DNA from: Candidatus Zixiibacteriota bacterium
Lineage (GTDB): Bacteria; Zixibacteria; MSB-5A5; GN15; FEB-12
Length of the DNA: 64,000 nucleotides
Direction of reading: 5' to 3'
Assembly: GCA_017999435.1 (NCBI GenBank)
Contig: JAGNLV010000003.1
Location: 186,001-250,000 of the forward strand
In this document: positions 12,771-25,175 of the stretch, piece after piece
Numbering within the stretch: position 1 is the stretch's first letter
How the letters are laid out: every line of letters starts with the position of its first letter
Translations under genes and position numbers: made by a program
Notes under the pieces: model-generated
What the model was told of the DNA's origin: nothing
Seen by the model: only the letters and a program-made list of their open reading frames with translations
Database searches by the model: none

Positions 12771-14558
12771 TTAGGCCGAGTGCGGCAGATGGATGCTGAA
12801 CGTGCTCCCCTGTCCGACCGCGCTGCGCACCGTCACCCGCCCCTTGTGGGCGCGGGCGATGTGTTTGACGATGGCCAAACCCAGCCCGGTTCCCCCCTGG
12901 TCGCGGCTGCGCGCCTTGTCGATGCGATAGAACCGCTCGAAGATCCGCTCGTGGTAGCGCGGCTCGATCCCCGGCCCCTCATCGGCGACGAACAGCTCGA
13001 CGCCCTCGACCGACCGGCGCGCCCCCGCCCGCACCGTGCTGCCGGCCGGGCCGTAGGTGATCGCATTGCTCAGGAGATTGACGAGCGCCTGCTCCAGCAG
13101 GCTGGGGTTGATCGGGGCCACGAGATCGAGGTCGCCCTCGCACAGGAGCGCAATCCCTTTCTCCCGGGCGCGGGATTCGCAGCTCTGCACCGCCGACCGC
13201 AGCACGCCTCCCACGGGCCGGCGTGTGACCTCACACCCCTCGCCGTCGCGCTCCTGCTCAAGGCGCGAGAGGGCGAGGAGATCCTCGATGATGTTGTTCA
13301 ACTGGTCGGCCTGGCGCTTGATGATCTCAAGAAAGCGCCGCGCATCCTCGGGCCGGTCCATCGCCCCGTCGAGCAGCGTCTCGAGAAAACCCTTGATCGA
13401 GGTGACGGGCGTGCGGAGTTCGTGGGAGACATTGGCGACGAAATCTGTGCGGATGTTTTCCAGACGGCGCAGGCGGGTGATGTCGTTGAGCACGATCACG
13501 CCGCCGGCGGCGTTGCCCGACCCGTCGCGCAGCGTGGTGCCGTGGACCTGCAGCTGCCGCTCGTCGTCGCCGGCCAATTCGATCGTCCCCTCCACCGGCG
13601 CTCCGGAGTGGAGCGTCTCCGAGACCAGGCGGTGCAGTTCGCTGTTGCGCACAACCTCGGGCACGCTCCGCCCGACGGCCTCCTCGGGCCGGATGCGGAG
13701 CAGCCGGGCGGCGGCGGCATTCAGGGTGAGGATACGTTCGGAGGTATCGACCGCCAGGACTCCCTCGACCATGGCGGCGAGAATGGCCTCCTGTTCGTTG
13801 CGCCGGCGGCCGATCGCCTCCATGCGCTCGTGGAGCTGGGCGGCCATTTCGTTCATCGCCTGGGCGAGCCCGGCGATTTCCTGATGCCCGGCCGCCGGAA
13901 GGGCATAGTCGAACTCGCCGCGCGCGAACCGGTCGGCGCCGGCGCGCAGGTCGCCGATCGGGCGCACCACCGACCGGGCAACGAGGCGGCTGATCACGGC
14001 CGCGAGCAGCACCAACAGCAGTCCGCCGACGACCACATCACCGGCCAGCGTCCCGGTCACCGTCCCGATCCCCCCTTCGGCCGCGTCTTCCGGGATGGCC
14101 GTCCGCACCACGCCGACCACCCGGTCGTCGGCAAGGACCGGCACCGCCGTGTACAGCATGTGGCGCTGGAGCGTGCTGCTGTAGCGCCGGGAGGCCATCA
14201 TCTCTCCGCGCAGGGCGGCGGCAATCTCCGGGCGAAACCGGTGCTGCTCCATGTGTTTCGGATCTTCCTCGCTGTCGGCCAGCACGCGGCCGTCGGCCCC
14301 CACGACCGTGAACCGCGTCCGGCCGGCGCGGCCGAGCGCGACCACGAGCGAATCGAGAGCATCGTTGTCGTGCGCATCCAGGTAGGGGGTGATGACCCTC
14401 TCCGCCAGCCGCGCCCGCATCTCCAGATCGTGGACGGCTTCATGGTAATGGGCGGTCCGGTAAGCCTGCCGCGTGTAGAGGTAGACGCCCCCCGCCGCCA
14501 GCGCCACGACCAGTACAAACGAGGGGAACAACTGCCACAACATCCGCCGCTGCCGCAT
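12771..14558 (-). CDS. phoR: Phosphate-regulon sensor histidine kinase PhoR
   Basis: Membrane sensor kinase, 595 residues. Order: TM1 (about 10-29), a periplasmic sensor of about 140 residues, TM2 (about 175-195), HAMP, PAS domain (about 255-355), HisKA with the phospho-accepting His379 in FVANVSHELRTPVTSIKG, and an HATPase with N-box NLLSNAIT, DEGPGIEP, ERFYRIDKARSRDQGGTGLG. The FYRxDKARSR segment is typical of PhoR. The substantial periplasmic domain is like Bacillus-type rather than E. coli PhoR. ATG 14558 shares one base with the phoB stop (TGATG), implying coupled translation. Together with phoB, pst and phoU it makes a compact phosphate-response locus. Confidence 0.9.
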   Translation of the reverse strand: MRQRRMLWQLFPSFVLVVALAAGGVYLYTRQAYRTAHYHEAVHDLEMRARLAERVITPYLDAHDNDALDSLVVALGRAGRTRFTVVGADGRVLADSEEDPKHMEQHRFRPEIAAALRGEMMASRRYSSTLQRHMLYTAVPVLADDRVVGVVRTAIPEDAAEGGIGTVTGTLAGDVVVGGLLLVLLAAVISRLVARSVVRPIGDLRAGADRFARGEFDYALPAAGHQEIAGLAQAMNEMAAQLHERMEAIGRRRNEQEAILAAMVEGVLAVDTSERILTLNAAAARLLRIRPEEAVGRSVPEVVRNSELHRLVSETLHSGAPVEGTIELAGDDERQLQVHGTTLRDGSGNAAGGVIVLNDITRLRRLENIRTDFVANVSHELRTPVTSIKGFLETLLDGAMDRPEDARRFLEIIKRQADQLNNIIEDLLALSRLEQERDGEGCEVTRRPVGGVLRSAVQSCESRAREKGIALLCEGDLDLVAPINPSLLEQALVNLLSNAITYGPAGSTVRAGARRSVEGVELFVADEGPGIEPRYHERIFERFYRIDKARSRDQGGTGLGLAIVKHIARAHKGRVTVRSAVGQGSTFSIHLPHSA

Positions 14559-15247
14559 CAGTTCTCCCGGAGGCGGTAGCCGACGCCCCGCACGGTTTCG
14601 ATATACCGGCCGGCCGCGCCCAGTTTCTTGCGCAGACCGACAATCTGCACATCGACCGACCGGTCGGTGACGATCACATCCTCGCCGCGCACCTGGTTGA
14701 CGATCTGGTACCGCGTGTAGACCCATCCGGGCCGCCGCGCGAGGAGGTGCAGGATCTGAAATTCGGTGTGCGTGAGTTGGACCGGGCGGCCGTCGACGCT
14801 CACCTCGTGCCGCCCGGGGTCGATGATGAAGCCGTGAATGGCCAGCCGCGCCGCGGCGTCCTCCGGCCCGGTCGCCTTGCGCCGGAGCACTGCCCGGATG
14901 CGCGCGATGAGCACTTTGGGGCTGAACGGCTTGGCGATATAGTCATCGGCCCCCATTTCGAGCCCGGCGACGATGTCGCTCTCTTCCCCCTTGGCAGTGA
15001 GCATGACAATCGGGATCGCGCGGGTGGCGGGGCTGTGCTTCAACTGGCGGCATACCTCCAAACCGTCGACGCCGGGCAGCATGAGGTCCAGCAACACGAG
15101 CGCCGGCGGCTCCCGGCGGGCGCAGGCCAAACCGTCTTCGCCGGTCACCGCCCGCACGACGCGGTACCCCTCGCGGGCGAGGTTGTAGGCAATCAGCTCC
15201 TGGATGTCCTGTTCATCTTCGATGACGAGAATCGGTTCCTTCGCCAT
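14558..15247 (-). CDS. phoB: Phosphate-regulon response regulator PhoB
   Basis: OmpR-family transcription factor, 229 residues. The receiver has the acidic pair in VIEDEQD, phospho-acceptor Asp54 in LLDLMLPGVDGLEV, T in MLTAKGEE and K in YIAKPFSPK. The C-terminal winged helix contains VQLTHTEFQILHLLARRPGW, and YTRYQIVNQVRGEDVIVTDR, the OmpR/PhoB recognition region. ATG 15247 (MAKEPILVIEDE) is preceded by GGAGAGG. The gene is first in the phoBR operon, and candidate Pho half-sites lie about 60-85 bases upstream, consistent with autoregulation. Confidence 0.92.
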   Translation of the reverse strand: MAKEPILVIEDEQDIQELIAYNLAREGYRVVRAVTGEDGLACARREPPALVLLDLMLPGVDGLEVCRQLKHSPATRAIPIVMLTAKGEESDIVAGLEMGADDYIAKPFSPKVLIARIRAVLRRKATGPEDAAARLAIHGFIIDPGRHEVSVDGRPVQLTHTEFQILHLLARRPGWVYTRYQIVNQVRGEDVIVTDRSVDVQIVGLRKKLGAAGRYIETVRGVGYRLREN

Positions 15248-15305
15248 GGCGCCTCTCCACCGGCTGCGACGGTCGCTTTCCGCACTAAGGTAAAACGCCT
15301 CCCCC

Positions 15306-15333
15306 GGTAAGGAAACCACTAACTTTCCGTTAG
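15306..15333 (-). promoter_or_regulatory. Degenerate Pho-box-like repeats upstream of phoB
   Basis: On the minus strand CTAACG (15333-15328), TTAGTG (15322-15317) and CTTACC (15311-15306) are phased at 11 bases. The middle unit is poor. Placement 59-86 bases before the phoB ATG fits autoregulation. Confidence 0.35.
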
Positions 15334-15385: not shown

Positions 15386-16750
15386 TCAGGCGTCCGGGCC
15401 GTGCAGGCCGTACTTCTTCATCCGGTACACCAGAACGTGCCTCGGGATTCCGAGCTGCAGCGCGGCCCGCGACCGATTGCCGCCGGTGCGGGTCAGCGCC
15501 TTGATGATGAGTTGCTTCTCCGTCTCCGGCAGGGTGCGCTCCGGTTCCGGGTCGCCCGCGGCGGGGCGGGCCTCGGCCGGGCCGACGTCGCGGCCGAAAT
15601 CCGGAGGCAAATCCGCGGTCGTGAGCACCTCGCCGCGCCGGAGGATCGCCATGCGCTCGATCAGGTTTTCGAGTTCGCGGATATTGCCCGGCCAGGCGTA
15701 CGCCGCCAGCCGCGCCATGAGCTCGGCATCGACCGCCAGCGGCGCGGAGGGGGCGAAAGCGCGCGCGAACTCCTTGACGAGAATGGGGATATCCTCGCGC
15801 CGCTCGCGCAGGCTCGGCACCCGGAGGGGAATGACGTTGAGCCGGTAGTAGAGATCCTCCCGGAATCTCCCCCGGGCGGCTCGCTCCTTGAGGTCCACAT
15901 TGGTCGCCGCGATCAGGCGGACATCCATCTCGACCGGCTTTTCCGCGCCGACCGGCTCGATCGTTTTCTCCTGAATCGCCCGGAGGAGCTTGGCCTGCAG
16001 GTCGATCGACAACTCAGCGATTTCATCGAGAAAGAGCGTCCCCCGGTCGGCCAGCTCGAATTTCCCCCGCTTGTCGCGCACGGCCCCGGTGAACGCCCCC
16101 CGCACGTGCCCGAACAGCTCCGATTCGATCAGATCCCTGGGGATGGCGGCGCAGTTGACGACCACCAACTCCCGGTCGGCCCGGTGGCTGCCGTAGTGGA
16201 TCGCCCGCGCGATCATCTCCTTGCCGGTGCCCGACTCTCCCGCAATCAGCACCGTCGCATCGGTCGGCGCGATTTTCTCCACCAGCGCCATCATCTCCCG
16301 GAAGGGGCGGGAGACGCCCACGAGTTTCCGCATTACGTCGCGCCCCCGGAGTCGTCCCCGCAGGAGGCGGTTTTCTTCGGCGAGCCGGCGATGCTCGAGG
16401 GCCTTGTCGATGGCCACGAACAACTGCTCGTCCTCGAACGGCTTGGTGAGATAGTCGAAGGCACCGAGCTTGACGGCCTGCACCGCCTGGGCGACCTCGG
16501 CGTGGGCGCTGATGAAAATCACCTCAAGATCCGGCTGTACGCCGCGCACCCGCTCGAGCAGTTCGATCCCGGACAGCCGGGGCATCCTGATGTCCGAGAG
16601 GAGCAGGTCGAAACGCTCCCGGGTGAGGCGGTCGAGAGCCTCGGCGCCGTCGCCGGCCGCCGTGACCGCGAACCCCTGCCGCTCCAGCTTGAACTGGAGG
16701 ACGCGGCGCAGTGAGGCGTCGTCGTCGGCCAAAAGAATGCGCACCGTCAT
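15386..16750 (-). CDS. Sigma-54-dependent response regulator (NtrC/ZraR family)
   Basis: Bacterial enhancer-binding protein of 454 residues with the full three-domain plan: receiver (Asp53 in [12 protein letters not shown]), AAA+ domain with Walker A GESGTGKE, the sigma-54-contacting GAFTGA loop at about residue 216, Walker [12 protein letters not shown] and an arginine-finger region, then a Fis-type helix-turn-helix ([20 protein letters not shown]). It activates promoters of the -24/-12 class. It overlaps its kinase by four bases (ATGA) and is divergent from the Cus-like efflux operon, whose start is abutted by a -24/-12-like element; the most likely target is therefore that operon, as ZraSR controls zraP. 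Confidence 0.93.
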
Positions 16751-17865
16751 CGCACCTCCCCCGCGGGCAGCCGGAGCGTGAACGTCGTCCCCGCCCCGAC
16801 CGTGCTCTCGACCGCGATCGACCCGCCGTGGCTTTCGACGATCTGCCTGGCCACGGCCAGCCCGAGACCGCTGCCCGAGGATTTCGTCGTGAAGAACGGG
16901 TCGAAAATGCGCCCGACTGCCTCCGGCGGGATGCCGTGGCCGCCGTCCGCTATCGTGAGGCGCGCGCCGCCGGCCTCGGATTCCACGGCCACGCGCACGG
17001 CGCCTCCCGGGGCGGACGCCTCGAGCGCATTGAGCAGCAAATTGAGCATGACCTGGTGGATCTTCTCCCGGTCGCCGACGATGGCGACGTCCGGCTGGAT
17101 GTGCCGCACCAGCCGGACGCCGGCGTGGGCCGCCGGGGCCTCGATCTGGCGCAGTCCGGCCGCCACCGTCTCCGACAGATTCATCGGCGCCAGGTGCGGC
17201 TCGCGCGGGCGGCCGAACTCGAGGAAATCGCGGAGCGTCCCGTCGATCCGCCGGATCTCGCTCACCGCGATCTCGCGGAACTCCGCCCGGTCCGCCTCCG
17301 GCGTGTCCTTGTCGCAGATGATCTCCACCGCCCCCTTGATGCTGGCGATCGGGTTCTTGATCTCGTGGGCCACGGTCGAAGCCATCCGGCCCACCAGCGC
17401 CTGGCGCTGCGACCGTTCGAGCGCGAGTTCTGTCTCCTGCTGGCGGCGGCGGACCCTGCGCTCGCGGTCGACGATCCCGCCGATCAGGCCGCCGAGGGCG
17501 AAGTAGAAGACGATTTCAGTGACCTCTCCGGCCGTGTTGTGCGCGCCGAGGTCGTTGACGAAGATGAACGGGAGCACGAGCAGCGAGATCGCTGCCGCCG
17601 CCCCCAACCCCCCCCGCAGGCCGAACCAGGAGGCGGCCAGGACGATCGGGATGTAGCACAGCCGTCCGTGGATGGCATGGATCCAGTGCTGGGGACCAAA
17701 AATCGGCTCCAGCACCCAGCCGTAGTGAATGCTGACCGTAACCAGGATGATGCCGCCGATGATCGCCAGACGGTAGCGCGTTCTCTCAGGCAGAGATTCA
17801 GTGAGCGAGCCGGAGCGCGGGCCCGCCAAAGGGGAGCTTTCCGGATGGGCAGGCGTCTTCTGCAC
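16747..17865 (-). CDS. Membrane sensor histidine kinase partnering the sigma-54 regulator
   Basis: About 372 residues. Four hydrophobic helices near the N-terminus (about residues 35-155) with very short loops, no periplasmic sensing domain, then HisKA with His167 in STVAHEIKNPIASIKG, and HATPase (LNLLLNALEAS, DGGHGIPPEAVGRIFDPFFT, SGSGLGLAVARQIVESHGG), the NtrB-type class that pairs with sigma-54 activators. GTG 17865 has an excellent GGAGG four bases upstream. A TTG at 17931 would extend the frame but lies upstream of the predicted transcription start (about 17926), so it is rejected. The signal may be a membrane-embedded or metal cue; the neighbouring copper/silver efflux suggests metal stress. 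Confidence 0.88.
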   Translation of the reverse strand: MQKTPAHPESSPLAGPRSGSLTESLPERTRYRLAIIGGIILVTVSIHYGWVLEPIFGPQHWIHAIHGRLCYIPIVLAASWFGLRGGLGAAAAISLLVLPFIFVNDLGAHNTAGEVTEIVFYFALGGLIGGIVDRERRVRRRQQETELALERSQRQALVGRMASTVAHEIKNPIASIKGAVEIICDKDTPEADRAEFREIAVSEIRRIDGTLRDFLEFGRPREPHLAPMNLSETVAAGLRQIEAPAAHAGVRLVRHIQPDVAIVGDREKIHQVMLNLLLNALEASAPGGAVRVAVESEAGGARLTIADGGHGIPPEAVGRIFDPFFTTKSSGSGLGLAVARQIVESHGGSIAVESTVGAGTTFTLRLPAGEVR

Positions 17866-17931: not shown

Positions 17932-17960
17932 CTTATAGTCTCATTCGGCATTCTTGTTAA
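17932..17960 (-). promoter_or_regulatory. Sigma-70 promoter for the kinase/sigma-54 regulator operon
   Basis: On the minus strand TTAACA (17960-17955), a 17-base spacer, and TATAAG (17937-17932); each hexamer matches five of six consensus bases. Predicted start near 17926, giving a leader of about 60 bases to GTG 17865. Confidence 0.65.
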
Positions 17961-17993
17961 CAATATTCTTCACCCGTTGAATAATATTCTTCA
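17954..17993. repeat. Direct and inverted repeats in the divergent cus promoter region (candidate enhancer sites)
   Basis: AATATTCTTCA occurs at 17962-17972 and 17983-17993, exactly 21 bases (two helical turns) apart. The second copy overlaps a perfect odd palindrome GAATAATATTC (17979-17989), and a TTGTTAACAA palindrome lies at 17954-17963. The AT-rich patch contrasts with the GC-rich surroundings. It sits roughly 90-120 bases upstream of the start predicted from the sigma-54-like element, the usual place for enhancer-binding-protein sites, and also overlaps the kinase promoter. Confidence 0.55.
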
Positions 17994-18057
17994 ATGACTT
18001 CATTCGTCAGCCATACATTCAAATGTTAAGTTGCTGCTAATCATACCATTATCAGGT

Positions 18058-18073
18058 CGGCACGTCGGTTGTT
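18058..18073 (+). promoter_or_regulatory. Putative sigma-54 (-24/-12) promoter of the cus-like operon
   Basis: CGGCACG-N4-TTGTT matches TGGCACG-N4-TTGCW at all defined bases except the first T and the C of TTGC. A transcription start about 12 bases further on falls at 18083-18085, immediately before ATG 18086, so the transcript would be nearly leaderless; no Shine-Dalgarno precedes this ATG, which agrees. The sigma-54 activator is encoded divergently. Confidence 0.6.
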
Positions 18074-18085
18074 TTGTGAGTTGGC

Positions 18086-19399
18086 ATGAAGAGCCGAGTA
18101 CTCCATGCTCCCACCAGTTGGTTCATCGTGGCGCTGCTGCTCGTTCTATCGATCTCCGGAGCGTCCCGGGGCGCCGAGCCGGCACTGGCCGACACGGTTC
18201 TGCCGGCCAGCCCGGCTCTCGACGATTACCTTCGGGTCGCCCTCAACCGGAGTCCCGATGTCCGTCGGGCCTATGAGAGCTGGCGCGCCGAAGCGGCTCA
18301 GACGGGTTACGCGGGAACGCTGCCCGACCCGATGCTGATGTTCGAGTACATGGTCGATCCCAAACAGCCGCGGCTCGGGGCGCGCCAGGAGATTCCGTGG
18401 CTTGGCGGGCTTCGGGCCGAGAAGGCGATGGCGGCGGCTGCCGCCCGGGCGGCGTACGACCGCTGCGAGGCGGCGCGCCTGGCTGTGATCTACCGCACGA
18501 CCGCGGCCTACTACAACTACTGGAACCTCAGCCGGCAGGTTGCGCTCATGCGCGAAAACCTGCAGCTCCTCACGTTCTGGGAGGAGGTTGTCCGCACCAA
18601 GTACCGGGCCGCCCTGGCCTCGCATCCCGATGTAATCAAGGCCCAGGTGGAGTTGGCCGCCATGGACAACCAGGTGCACTCGCTCGAGGATCGCCTCGGG
18701 CCCTCCCGACAGCAACTGCTCGCGGAGCTCAATCTGCCCGCCGCGACTGAACTTCCCGTACCGGCCGGCGTGGTTCCCCCGGCGGTTACTATCGACGAAA
18801 CGACGGCGCTGGCCGCGATTGACTCGGCCAATCCCGACCTTCGGGCGATGGCGGCCATGGTGGAGCAGGAGCGGGCCGGGGTGCGGGCGGCGAATGCCGC
18901 ACGGTATCCCGGCCTGACCGTCGGCGCCGACTACCTCTTCGCCGGCCGGTCAGCCGACCCGGGGATGACCGGCGACGGTGCGGACACCTGGGTGCTCAGT
19001 GCATCCGTCTCCCTCCCCCTTTGGCTCGGCAAGAACCAGGCCCGGTCGCGCGCGGCCGAGGCCCGCGAACGGGCCGCCGCTTATGATCTGACCGAGTCGC
19101 GCAACCGGCTGCGTACATATGCCGCCGACGTGATGTACCAGTACCGCGACGCGCGCCGTCGGGTCGAGTTGTACGCCGGCGGCCTTCTGCCCAAAGCCGA
19201 GGAGGGGCTCAATGCCGCCTACACAGCCTACCAGGCCGGGGCGCTCGATTTTCTGAGTCTCCTGGACGCCCAGCGGCAACTGCTCGAATTTCAACTGGCC
19301 CACAGCGAGGCTGTCGCCGCCGCCGCCGTCCGCCTGGCGGAGCTTGAGATGCTCGCCGGCGGCCGACTCACCGGCGAGACGCCGGCGACCGAACGGTGA
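18086..19399 (+). CDS. TolC-family outer-membrane efflux channel (CusC-like)
   Basis: Outer-membrane factor of 437 residues for tripartite metal efflux. A signal peptide (WFIVALLLVLSISGA) is followed by two copies of the alpha-helical TolC repeat; SRAAEARERAAAYDLTESRN and AYTAYQAGALDFLSLLDAQR are typical OEP segments. It opens the operon with the adaptor and the RND pump, 40 bases before the adaptor start. Its own start has no ribosome binding site, and the putative sigma-54 promoter predicts a start only two to three bases upstream. No lipobox cysteine is seen, unlike E. coli CusC. Confidence 0.88.
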   Translation: MKSRVLHAPTSWFIVALLLVLSISGASRGAEPALADTVLPASPALDDYLRVALNRSPDVRRAYESWRAEAAQTGYAGTLPDPMLMFEYMVDPKQPRLGARQEIPWLGGLRAEKAMAAAAARAAYDRCEAARLAVIYRTTAAYYNYWNLSRQVALMRENLQLLTFWEEVVRTKYRAALASHPDVIKAQVELAAMDNQVHSLEDRLGPSRQQLLAELNLPAATELPVPAGVVPPAVTIDETTALAAIDSANPDLRAMAAMVEQERAGVRAANAARYPGLTVGADYLFAGRSADPGMTGDGADTWVLSASVSLPLWLGKNQARSRAAEARERAAAYDLTESRNRLRTYAADVMYQYRDARRRVELYAGGLLPKAEEGLNAAYTAYQAGALDFLSLLDAQRQLLEFQLAHSEAVAAAAVRLAELEMLAGGRLTGETPATER

Positions 19400-19439: not shown

Positions 19440-21386
19440 ATGAACGATTTTGAGGCTGCCGGCGGCCGCTCCCCCCGGAGCCGAATCGACCGGTTCCGCC
19501 GAACCCGGCTCGGCCTCGCGGTGCAGATTGCGCTGGTCATGGGCGTGTTCGCGCTCGGCCTGATGATCGGCGGGGGCGGGAGTCCCGCTCCCTCCGCCGA
19601 CAGCGGGCGCCCCGGCGCCGAAGAGGCGAACGCCCCAGTGCTGTGGACCTGCTCCATGCACCCGCAGATTCAACTGCCCAAACCGGGGAAGTGCCCGATC
19701 TGCTTCATGGATCTTATCCCGGTCGAGACCGGGCGCGGCAGCGGCCGCCTCGGTCCCCGCCAGATTGCGATGAGCGAGGCGGCCCGGAGGCTGGCCCGCA
19801 TCGAGACCGCGCCGGTCCGGCGCGCCGACGCCGAGGCGGACATTCGCCTGGTCGGGCAGATCGACTATGACGAAACCCGCCTGGCGTACATTGCGGCCCG
19901 CGTGCCCGGCCGTATTGACACGCTTTTCGCCGACTACACCGGGGTCACCGTGCGGCGGGGGGCGCCCCTGGTTTCGCTCTACTCGCCCGATCTTTTGTCA
20001 ACCCAGCAGGAGCTCTTGCAGGCGAAGAAAGCGCTGGCCGCAGCGGCGCAGAGCGCCGGACTGGTGCGCGCGACAGCCGAATCGACCCTGGCCGCAGCCC
20101 GCGAACGGCTCCGTCTCTGGGGACTGACCGCCGAGCAGATCGAGCGTATCGAGGCCGGCGGCCAACCCAGCGACCACTTGACGATTCTCTCGCCCATCAG
20201 CGGCACGGTGATCGAGAAAGAAGCTCTCGAGGGGGAATATGTCGAGACCGGCATGCGCATCTATACGGTCGCCGATCTCTCCCGGCTGTGGGTGATTCTG
20301 GAAGCATATGAGTCCGATCTCCCCTGGCTGCGCGAGGGGCAGCGGTTCACCTTCACTGCCCAGGCGCTACCCGGCGAGACGTTCTCCGCGGTCGTATCGT
20401 TCATCGACCCGGTCATCGACCCGGAGAGCCGGACCGCGCGCGTCCGGGCGGCGGTGGACAACGCTGCGGGCCGGCTGAAACCGAAGATGTTTGTCTCGGG
20501 CGAGGTTGCGGCGCGGCTTGGCTCCGAGAGCGGCCTCGCGCGCTCCACCGGCCGGCCGGACGCCCCCCTGCTCATCCCCACCTCGGCGCCGCTGGTGACC
20601 GGCACGCGGGCGGTGGTTTACGTCAAAACGGCCGAGGACGGCGACGGCCCGGTGTACGAAGGGCGCGACATAGTCCTCGGTCCGCGGGCAGGGGATTTCT
20701 ATGTCGTCGCCAACGGGCTGGCCGAGGGAGAGGAAGTGGTCTCGCGCGGGGCGTTCAAGATCGACGCCGAGCTGCAGATTCAGGCGAAACCTTCGATGAT
20801 GTCCCCTGCGCCGCTCGCCCGCCGGGCGGCCGACAGCGCGTCTGTGCACGGCGACCATCCCGCCGCCGGCGCGGACGTCGCGATCTCGCCGGACGCCCGG
20901 GCATCCCTCTCCCCGCTCTACGAGGCGTATTTCGAAGTCCAGATGGCTCTCGCGAAGGATCAATTCGAGGCTTCGCGGCGCGGCCTGGACGATCTGGCGG
21001 CGAAGACGGCGGCGGTTGACATGAGCCTCTTCGCCGGCCGGGCACACGCACTGTGGATGGACCTGTCGCGGCGCCTGCAGACCGCCGCGCGGGCGGGCGC
21101 GGCCGCCGGCGACATCGCCGCCGTGCGCAACGCTTTCCGCGATCTTTCCGCCACCGCCATCGACCTGCACCGGGCGTTCGGTCACGCCGACGACCGCCCC
21201 TTCTACCTCACATACTGCCCGATGGCTTTCCACAACACCGGCGCCTACTGGCTGCAAACCGAAGGGATTGTCTGGAACTCCTACTGGGGGGCCGCCATGC
21301 TGCAGTGCGGGGAAATCCGCGACACGCTTCCCGCGCTCTCGGCCGGAGCCGGGATCACCGCCCCTGACTCCGGACAGGGCCGCTGA
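19440..21386 (+). CDS. cusB: Heavy-metal efflux RND periplasmic adaptor (CusB-like) with metal-binding N- and C-terminal domains
   Basis: Periplasmic adaptor, 648 residues, larger than E. coli CusB (about 407). One N-terminal membrane anchor (about 23-42), then a heavy-metal-binding module with WTCSMHPQI and GKCPICFMDLIPVE (about 62-92), the HlyD core with beta-barrel and lipoyl hairpin (VSLYSPDLLSTQQELLQAKK; SPISGTVIEKEALEGEYVET), and a C-terminal DUF3347-type domain (about 495-635) with YLTYCPMAFHNTGAYWLQ and MLQCGE, a second Cys/Met/His-rich metal site. Two extra metal-binding domains fit Cu(I)/Ag(I) capture and handoff to CusA. ATG 19440 follows an AGAGAG-type sequence; the pump gene begins three bases after the stop. 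Confidence 0.92.
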   Translation: MNDFEAAGGRSPRSRIDRFRRTRLGLAVQIALVMGVFALGLMIGGGGSPAPSADSGRPGAEEANAPVLWTCSMHPQIQLPKPGKCPICFMDLIPVETGRGSGRLGPRQIAMSEAARRLARIETAPVRRADAEADIRLVGQIDYDETRLAYIAARVPGRIDTLFADYTGVTVRRGAPLVSLYSPDLLSTQQELLQAKKALAAAAQSAGLVRATAESTLAAARERLRLWGLTAEQIERIEAGGQPSDHLTILSPISGTVIEKEALEGEYVETGMRIYTVADLSRLWVILEAYESDLPWLREGQRFTFTAQALPGETFSAVVSFIDPVIDPESRTARVRAAVDNAAGRLKPKMFVSGEVAARLGSESGLARSTGRPDAPLLIPTSAPLVTGTRAVVYVKTAEDGDGPVYEGRDIVLGPRAGDFYVVANGLAEGEEVVSRGAFKIDAELQIQAKPSMMSPAPLARRAADSASVHGDHPAAGADVAISPDARASLSPLYEAYFEVQMALAKDQFEASRRGLDDLAAKTAAVDMSLFAGRAHALWMDLSRRLQTAARAGAAAGDIAAVRNAFRDLSATAIDLHRAFGHADDRPFYLTYCPMAFHNTGAYWLQTEGIVWNSYWGAAMLQCGEIRDTLPALSAGAGITAPDSGQGR

Positions 21387-21389
21387 CGT

Positions 21390-25175
<3,786 letters not shown>

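Follow-up and report, generated by a model that had tools for sequence, protein, structure and literature searches.

A conserved candidate sigma-54 promoter at the start codon of a predicted copper/silver efflux operon in Candidatus Zixiibacteriota

Genes and regulatory features of the efflux locus

The window, meaning the whole 64-kb stretch of DNA that was analysed, contains a three-gene efflux operon on the + strand. Its first gene (18086–19399) encodes a TolC/CusC-like outer-membrane efflux protein, the second (19440–21386) a CusB-like periplasmic adaptor with a heavy-metal-binding domain (HMBD) and DUF3347, and the third (21390–25175) a CusA-like RND pump, assigned from TIGR00914 and alignment with CusA. 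The pump scored 783.4 bits against the TIGR00914 CusA/CzcA model (cut-off 701.45). Its best solved relatives were E. coli CusA structures, and in the alignment its methionines match those of the three-methionine Cu/Ag relay of CusA (M573, M623, and M672 in E. coli). The pump is thus a predicted CusA-type HME-RND protein that would export Cu/Ag.

The divergent operon on the - strand was described in the initial annotation as a GAFTGA activator with its kinase, and the domain searches bear this out. The response regulator (15386–16750) belongs to the NtrC family by domain and motif search and carries a receiver domain, an AAA+ domain with the GAFTGA motif at residue 218, and a Fis-type HTH. The sensor histidine kinase (16747–17865, 372 aa) has a GTG start at 17865 behind AGGAGG. 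Its N-terminal part resembles DUF4118 at a score below the cut-off (26.8 of 28.4 bits), and the domain search found no recognised metal domain in the sensor part. A second two-component pair, consisting of a PAS/HAMP kinase and an OmpR-type regulator, adjoins this pair on the - strand (12771–15319).

A candidate -24/-12 promoter of the efflux operon, assigned from sequence and conservation, lies on the + strand at 18058–18073. Its sequence is as first described, CGGCACG-N4-TTGTT with the spacer letters TCGG, and it matches the consensus at 10 of 12 positions. The two departures from TGGCACG-N4-TTGCW are C for T at -26 and T for C at -12 (position 18072). The hallmark GG at -25/-24 and the 4-bp spacer are present; of the hallmark GC at -13/-12, G-13 is retained and the -12 base is T. 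With +1 placed 26 nt after the first promoter base, the predicted start of the efflux mRNA is 18084. The initial annotation proposed sigma-54 control and named the absence of rpoN from the genome as grounds for giving it up. This objection falls away, as the genome (3.5 Mb, 98.2% complete) contains a single copy of rpoN (E = 8.2e-59), and the sigma-54 reading of the operon is supported.

The number of such matches was not above chance. With up to two mismatches, one match was found in the 64-kb window versus 8.4 expected in shuffles, and 238 were found genome-wide versus 479 for a reversed control pattern. The idea that the match is significant on its own over the window or genome was therefore dropped. 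Within its own intergenic region, the site reached p = 0.02 when C at -12 was rewarded and p = 0.003 when the -12 base was ignored. The weight given to the site thus comes from its conservation across loci and not from match counts in the window or genome; this conservation confirms it as a genuine match to the predicted promoter.

The ATG of the TolC-like gene (18086) falls at predicted +3, which would leave a leader of about 2 nt. Upstream of this ATG, the reading frame is closed by a TGA (18077–18079), so an earlier start of the TolC-like gene is blocked. By eye, there is no GGAG-type Shine-Dalgarno in TTGTTTTGTGAGTTGGC before the ATG, in agreement with what had first been noticed.

Two palindromes resembling TTGAAGAATATTCTTCAA, on which the initial annotation was silent, lie upstream of the promoter. 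The proximal one, TTGAATAATATTCTTCAA (17977–17994), is centred about -98 from +1 and the distal one, GTTAACAATATTCTTCAC (17956–17973), about -119, so that their centres are 21 bp apart. Both are likely activator sites on the basis of sequence. At three or fewer mismatches, the window palindrome is present as a single copy in its own genome.

Possible IHF-like bending sites occur between the predicted activator sites and the promoter (18027–18051), a suspicion prompted by partly conserved columns at -61 to -53 in the relatives. Against the IHF consensus, TAAGTTGCTGCTA at 18027 had two mismatches (p = 0.37) and AATCATACCATTA at 18039 had one (p = 0.098), and neither was significant. An IHF-like site at p ≤ 0.05 was found in 5 of the 27 efflux loci described below in one direction and in 2 of 27 in the other. 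The genome contains two HU/IHF-family genes. An IHF-like site between the palindromes and the promoter is therefore put forward as suggestive. Separately, mismatch-free IHF-type sites near -58 were seen in L121, L146, and L147, and a reversed one in L116.

Conservation of the promoter, palindromes, and start codon

A search for the kinase covered 117 genomes, the majority from the same family, order, or class, and then 132 genomes of the phylum with a match threshold of E ≤ 1e-65. It was found at this threshold in 48 of the 132, and the genomes listed all belong to the same class (64 of the 132 phylum genomes without a match were outside that listing). In total, 49 kinase loci of unequal closeness (36–56% identity) were fetched, L112 to L160. 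A TolC-like gene was divergent from the kinase in 26 of them, followed by CusB- or CusA-type genes in 22 of these 26; in L141, L143, L145, and L156 the stretch ends early or shows no CusB/CusA-type gene. The 26 loci and the window formed the efflux set of 27 loci, covering 25 genomes, 17 genera, and 5 families. The other 23 loci, which lack TolC, served as a contrast set. The computed features are the anatomy of the locus with its conservation, the placement of the start codon, the presence of rpoN, and the palindromes with their spacing; the loci are related by descent, and the p-values overstate their independence.

The first promoter score rewarded C at -12 and gave 16 of 27 efflux sites at p ≤ 0.05. 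Because such a score biases the comparison of -12 bases, a -12-blind score was adopted. With this score, all 27 efflux loci had a site on the + strand scoring 10.0 or more out of 12.5 (4.5 in shuffles), and 26 of 27 had one scoring 11 or more (0.7 in shuffles). Including the window, 26 of 27 loci beat their shuffles at p ≤ 0.05 and 24 of 27 at p ≤ 0.01; the exception was L147, with a weak site (p = 0.10). With one locus per genus (17 genera), G-25, G-24, C-23, A-22, T-14, and G-13 were invariant, and the mean upstream column in this set held 0.33 bits. These 17 sites were chosen by score, and the shuffle control is the fair measure of their conservation.

The palindromes were conserved as well. 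The best palindrome beat shuffles at p ≤ 0.05 in 24 of 27 efflux loci, scored with a consensus drawn from the same loci. Palindrome starts cluster near -70, -80, -90, -101, -112, and -124 from the first promoter base, that is, with a register of about 10.5 bp to the promoter (R = 0.83, with eight periods tried on related loci, so that R is no probability). The hallmark arrangement of tandem palindromes in helical register with a promoter was thus found at the level of sequence, roughly 100 and 120 bp before the predicted start and in register in most loci. A stricter form of the palindrome gave 21 sites in 98 genomes of the class versus 2 for a reversed control. Of these 21 sites, 10 belong to the kinase-regulator locus, including one immediately after the regulator gene. 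Four loci cut by a contig end (L226, L231, L233, and L241) were left out of the sigma-54/palindrome spacing. In one of these, L231 (G044), the palindrome stands beside a PII-like frame and a membrane methyltransferase-like frame, both named by eye; this locus is possibly a second metal cluster of the regulon.

Three further loci served as a later test. Two of them, L243 and L244, from genomes first seen once the pattern was fixed, match it: they have a divergent TolC-like gene, TGGCAC-N5-TTGA sites, and palindromes with five or fewer mismatches at -80/-100 and -102/-112, respectively. The third, L245, lacks a TolC-like gene, and its sites score no higher than 9.5, though a palindrome with three or fewer mismatches is present. 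In the Bryobacterales locus L032, one of two among 80 named loci with any efflux match, the kinase, NtrC-type regulator, and divergent TolC-CusB-CusA genes stand in the same order, and no recognisable palindrome or -24/-12 site was found, so that the promoter arrangement may not be general across phyla.

In the contrast set, which lacks TolC, a promoter site scoring 11 or more was found on the + strand in 9 of 23 loci, and all nine have a palindrome at -110 to -114; in L125, the TTG of the -12 element is lost. The other 14 have no site of this score, and 10 of them have a palindrome with five or fewer mismatches. Taking the longest frame within 1.5 kb as the next gene proved wrong, as a smaller frame usually precedes it. 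In six of the nine loci (L119, L134, L140, L142, L150, and L160), the first frame is small and secreted-looking and encodes CPVMGG...YHCC-type motifs, not a pump. These frames are YHS-like by eye, with the palindrome at -110 to -112, and a search with their first 110 residues found no Pfam family at E ≤ 0.001. About 600 bp downstream of the module, Pfam identified an HMBD protein in L114 and a YHS protein in L140.

The predicted near-leaderless layout first proposed for the window recurs in the orthologous loci, together with the promoter and palindromes. In 16 of 27 loci (1.05 expected from upstream codons), and by genus in 11 of 17, an ATG or GTG that is in frame with the TolC match and open to it stands at +1 to +5. 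The first in-frame ATG is at +5 in L243 and at +6 in L244. Where a divergent kinase promoter site was found, the candidate leader usually measures about 6 to 35 nt, with an exception of 102 nt in L121; the kinase of L118 also has an in-frame ATG at +1.

From this placement, the first gene of the efflux mRNA is probably translated as a leaderless message. An alternative is that the sigma-54 promoter is real and the codon near +1 is not a leaderless start, either through an additional transcription start upstream or through a translation start downstream. A second in-frame ATG at +22 to +32 in L117, L122, L135, L137, and L144 (5 of 16) and in the later L243 fits this alternative. In the five loci the later ATG, which GGAG precedes in L117 and L122, could be the true start. 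Furthermore, a start at +1 to +5 is absent from 11 of 27 loci, and that of L244 is at +6. Against it, 11 of the 27 loci, the window among them, have no in-frame ATG or GTG as far as +35 other than the codon near +1 and neighbours within 6 nt of it. In the window itself, the frame is closed upstream by the TGA at 18077, and the next in-frame ATG comes after a signal-peptide-like stretch. We regard this alternative as a substantial possibility and lean towards the leaderless message.

The base at -12 in the divergent promoters

The -12 base of the 27 efflux promoters is A in 16, T in 8, and C in 3, so that A or T is found in 24 of 27; by genus, C occurs in 2 of 17. On the opposite strand, the 22 divergent kinase promoters scoring at least 9.5 have C in 18 and A in 4. 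The difference between efflux and kinase promoters gave a Fisher p of 1e-6, with relatedness ignored. The five remaining loci, including the window, have no kinase site of at least 9.5. In the window, the best score of any sigma-54 site for the kinase was 8.0, and a sigma-70-type candidate on the - strand (9/12) could drive the gene. The window kinase may therefore be transcribed from a sigma-70-type promoter, and the autoregulation suggested in the relatives is not evident in the window.

The exact pattern TGGCACG-N4-TTGNW occurs 117 times in 21 genomes of the class, versus 34 times with N3 and 35 times with N5. The -12 base of the 117 matches is A in 40, T in 41, C in 25, and G in 11, and on this distribution the lineage seems to tolerate A or T at -12. 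C was not enriched (25 of 117 at N4 versus 15 of 69 at N3/N5, p = 1.0), G was depleted (p = 0.01), and T was higher at N4 in raw counts (41 of 117 versus 8 of 69). In 14 genomes outside the class, 76 matches were found at N4 versus 37 at N3 and 49 at N5, and the expected excess of C at -12 was absent (22 of 76 versus 22 of 86 at N3/N5, Fisher p = 0.72). Accordingly, no claim is made that other phyla are strict for C at this position.

At least 4 of 15 listed near-consensus sites (L171, L176, L179, and L180) precede an ATG with an ordinary Shine-Dalgarno leader, as judged by eye; L171, L176, and L179 are TTGAT sites in the genome of the window. Several others among the 15 fall inside long reading frames. 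L180 (G000:C4:107754–107769) has TGGCACGCCTCCTGCT, GGAG, and ATG, by eye, before a flagellar rod-like protein, and looks like a canonical sigma-54 promoter in the same genome.

Canonical sigma-54 promoters, as given in the available parts of PMC12316311 and PMC7910581, share the -24 element, the 4-bp spacer, and TTG with the sites described here. The difference is at -12, where they have C and 24 of the 27 efflux promoters have A or T. The accessible text of PMC7910581 describes the GC hallmark at -13/-12 as typical with known one-base exceptions, and reports that one-base changes in GC or GG occur in characterised sigma-54 promoters. For this reason, A or T at -12 is called uncommon, not unheard of.

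A predicted metal circuit and its relation to known systems

Taken together, the locus very probably represents a dedicated metal circuit composed of the kinase, the NtrC-type regulator, the palindromes, the sigma-54 promoter, and the near-leaderless efflux mRNA. From the features computed above, we infer the binding, the phosphorylation, the metal, the transcription start, and the leaderless translation in this scheme. In or at the membrane, the kinase would sense a metal (probably Cu(I)/Ag(I)) and then phosphorylate the NtrC-type regulator. The regulator would bind both tandem palindromes (17956–17994), which lie on the same side of the helix as the promoter, and would use its GAFTGA loop to remodel the sigma-54 RNA polymerase waiting at 18058–18073. 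Transcription from about 18084 would give a TolC-CusB-CusA mRNA with a leader of about 2 nt, the first gene of which would be translated without a leader.

E. coli has a comparable arrangement for cusCFBA, in which the divergent CusRS genes lie beside a TolC-CusB-CusA-type pump. CusR is an OmpR-type regulator that works with sigma-70. Divergent two-component genes are common to both systems, and the NtrC-type regulator distinguishes the locus described here. The initial annotation considered a sigma-54 circuit to be a different control logic for such a pump. This holds as far as the NtrC-type regulator is concerned, but a CusA/CusB precedent exists in Myxococcus xanthus, where MXAN989 is a listed Nla28 target with a sigma-54 promoter (PMC9765219, available part). 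That CusA/CusB operon shares with the present one a sigma-54 promoter (CCGCACG-N4-TTGCT) and activator half-sites. In the same text, Nla28 is a regulator of starvation for which several targets and GC-rich half-sites are listed, whereas the activator here is the product of an adjacent gene, its palindrome occurs once in the genome at three or fewer mismatches, and the -12 base is T.

Whether the circuit answers Cu/Ag was weighed against ZraSR of E. coli, a kinase with an NtrC-type, sigma-54-dependent regulator tied to zinc and envelope stress (PMC7657598, in part). A circuit of the same kind here, responding to general envelope stress or another metal as thought for ZraSR, would agree with a kinase sensor part in which no recognised metal domain was found. 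Against such a response, the pump exceeds the TIGR00914 CusA/CzcA cut-off with the E. coli CusA methionines aligned, the adaptor has a heavy-metal-binding domain, and the two HMBD or YHS genes lie behind the same module in loci without TolC. The ZraR targets listed in the available part of PMC7657598 are zraP, zraSR, and mgtA, with no RND pump. Furthermore, neither protein reached the curated ZraS/ZraR cut-offs. The regulator scored 388 bits against the ZraR model (cut-off 760) and was nearer the AtoC model (464 bits, also below the cut-off), and the kinase scored 191.5 bits against the ZraS model (cut-off 479). A response to general stress or another metal is accordingly rather unlikely, and a response to Cu/Ag is the preferred prediction.

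It is very unlikely that sigma-70 drives the operon from TTAACA-N17-AATAAT (17957–17985; 10/12, with a leader of about 90 nt), the palindromes that it overlaps being the operator and the -24/-12 match a chance one: sigma-70-like sites are in excess in the region (3 on both strands versus 0.4 in shuffles), but this match coincides with the AT-rich palindromes, in the one-per-genus set a sigma-70-like site is absent from 10 of 17 loci over the stretch between 140 bp before the -24/-12 site and the predicted +1, the GGCA and TG of the -24/-12 site are kept in 17 of 17, and the regulator is of the GAFTGA class.

A literature search that covered few subscription papers found no paper in which a Cus-type pump is under the control of a dedicated NtrC-type pair, and the available parts of PMC3333781 and PMC8836040 contain no such case. 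Activators that work with sigma-54 in metal stress have been documented for E. coli and Salmonella, with the function conserved in Desulfovibrio (PMC4641369, in part). Leaderless transcripts and sigma-54 promoters are both reported in PMC3616915, with no statement joining them found in its available text. The parts of the present circuit are therefore known, and what sets it apart as a variant is the dedicated pair, A or T at -12, and the start codon at +1 to +5.

We tentatively propose, at somewhat less than an even chance, that the -12 base of sigma-54 promoters is relaxed to A, T, or C in this phylum and that the sigma-54 switch of the efflux operon is fused to a leaderless start that bypasses the Shine-Dalgarno, with A/T at -12 of the efflux promoter versus C in the kinase promoter of relatives setting the strength or leakiness of the divergent promoters. 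If true, an efflux mRNA made by an activator-opened polymerase would begin within 5 nt of its start codon, and one activator on one shared set of upstream sites would fire two divergent promoters unequally, in strength or in leakiness.

These results point to a sigma-54 circuit that is conserved and dedicated to a Cus-type metal pump, with the listed genomes all in one class. They predict that the position of a sigma-54 promoter can make its message leaderless, and that the natural promoters described here can do without the hallmark C at -12. Promoter finders that require TTGC would overlook such sites.
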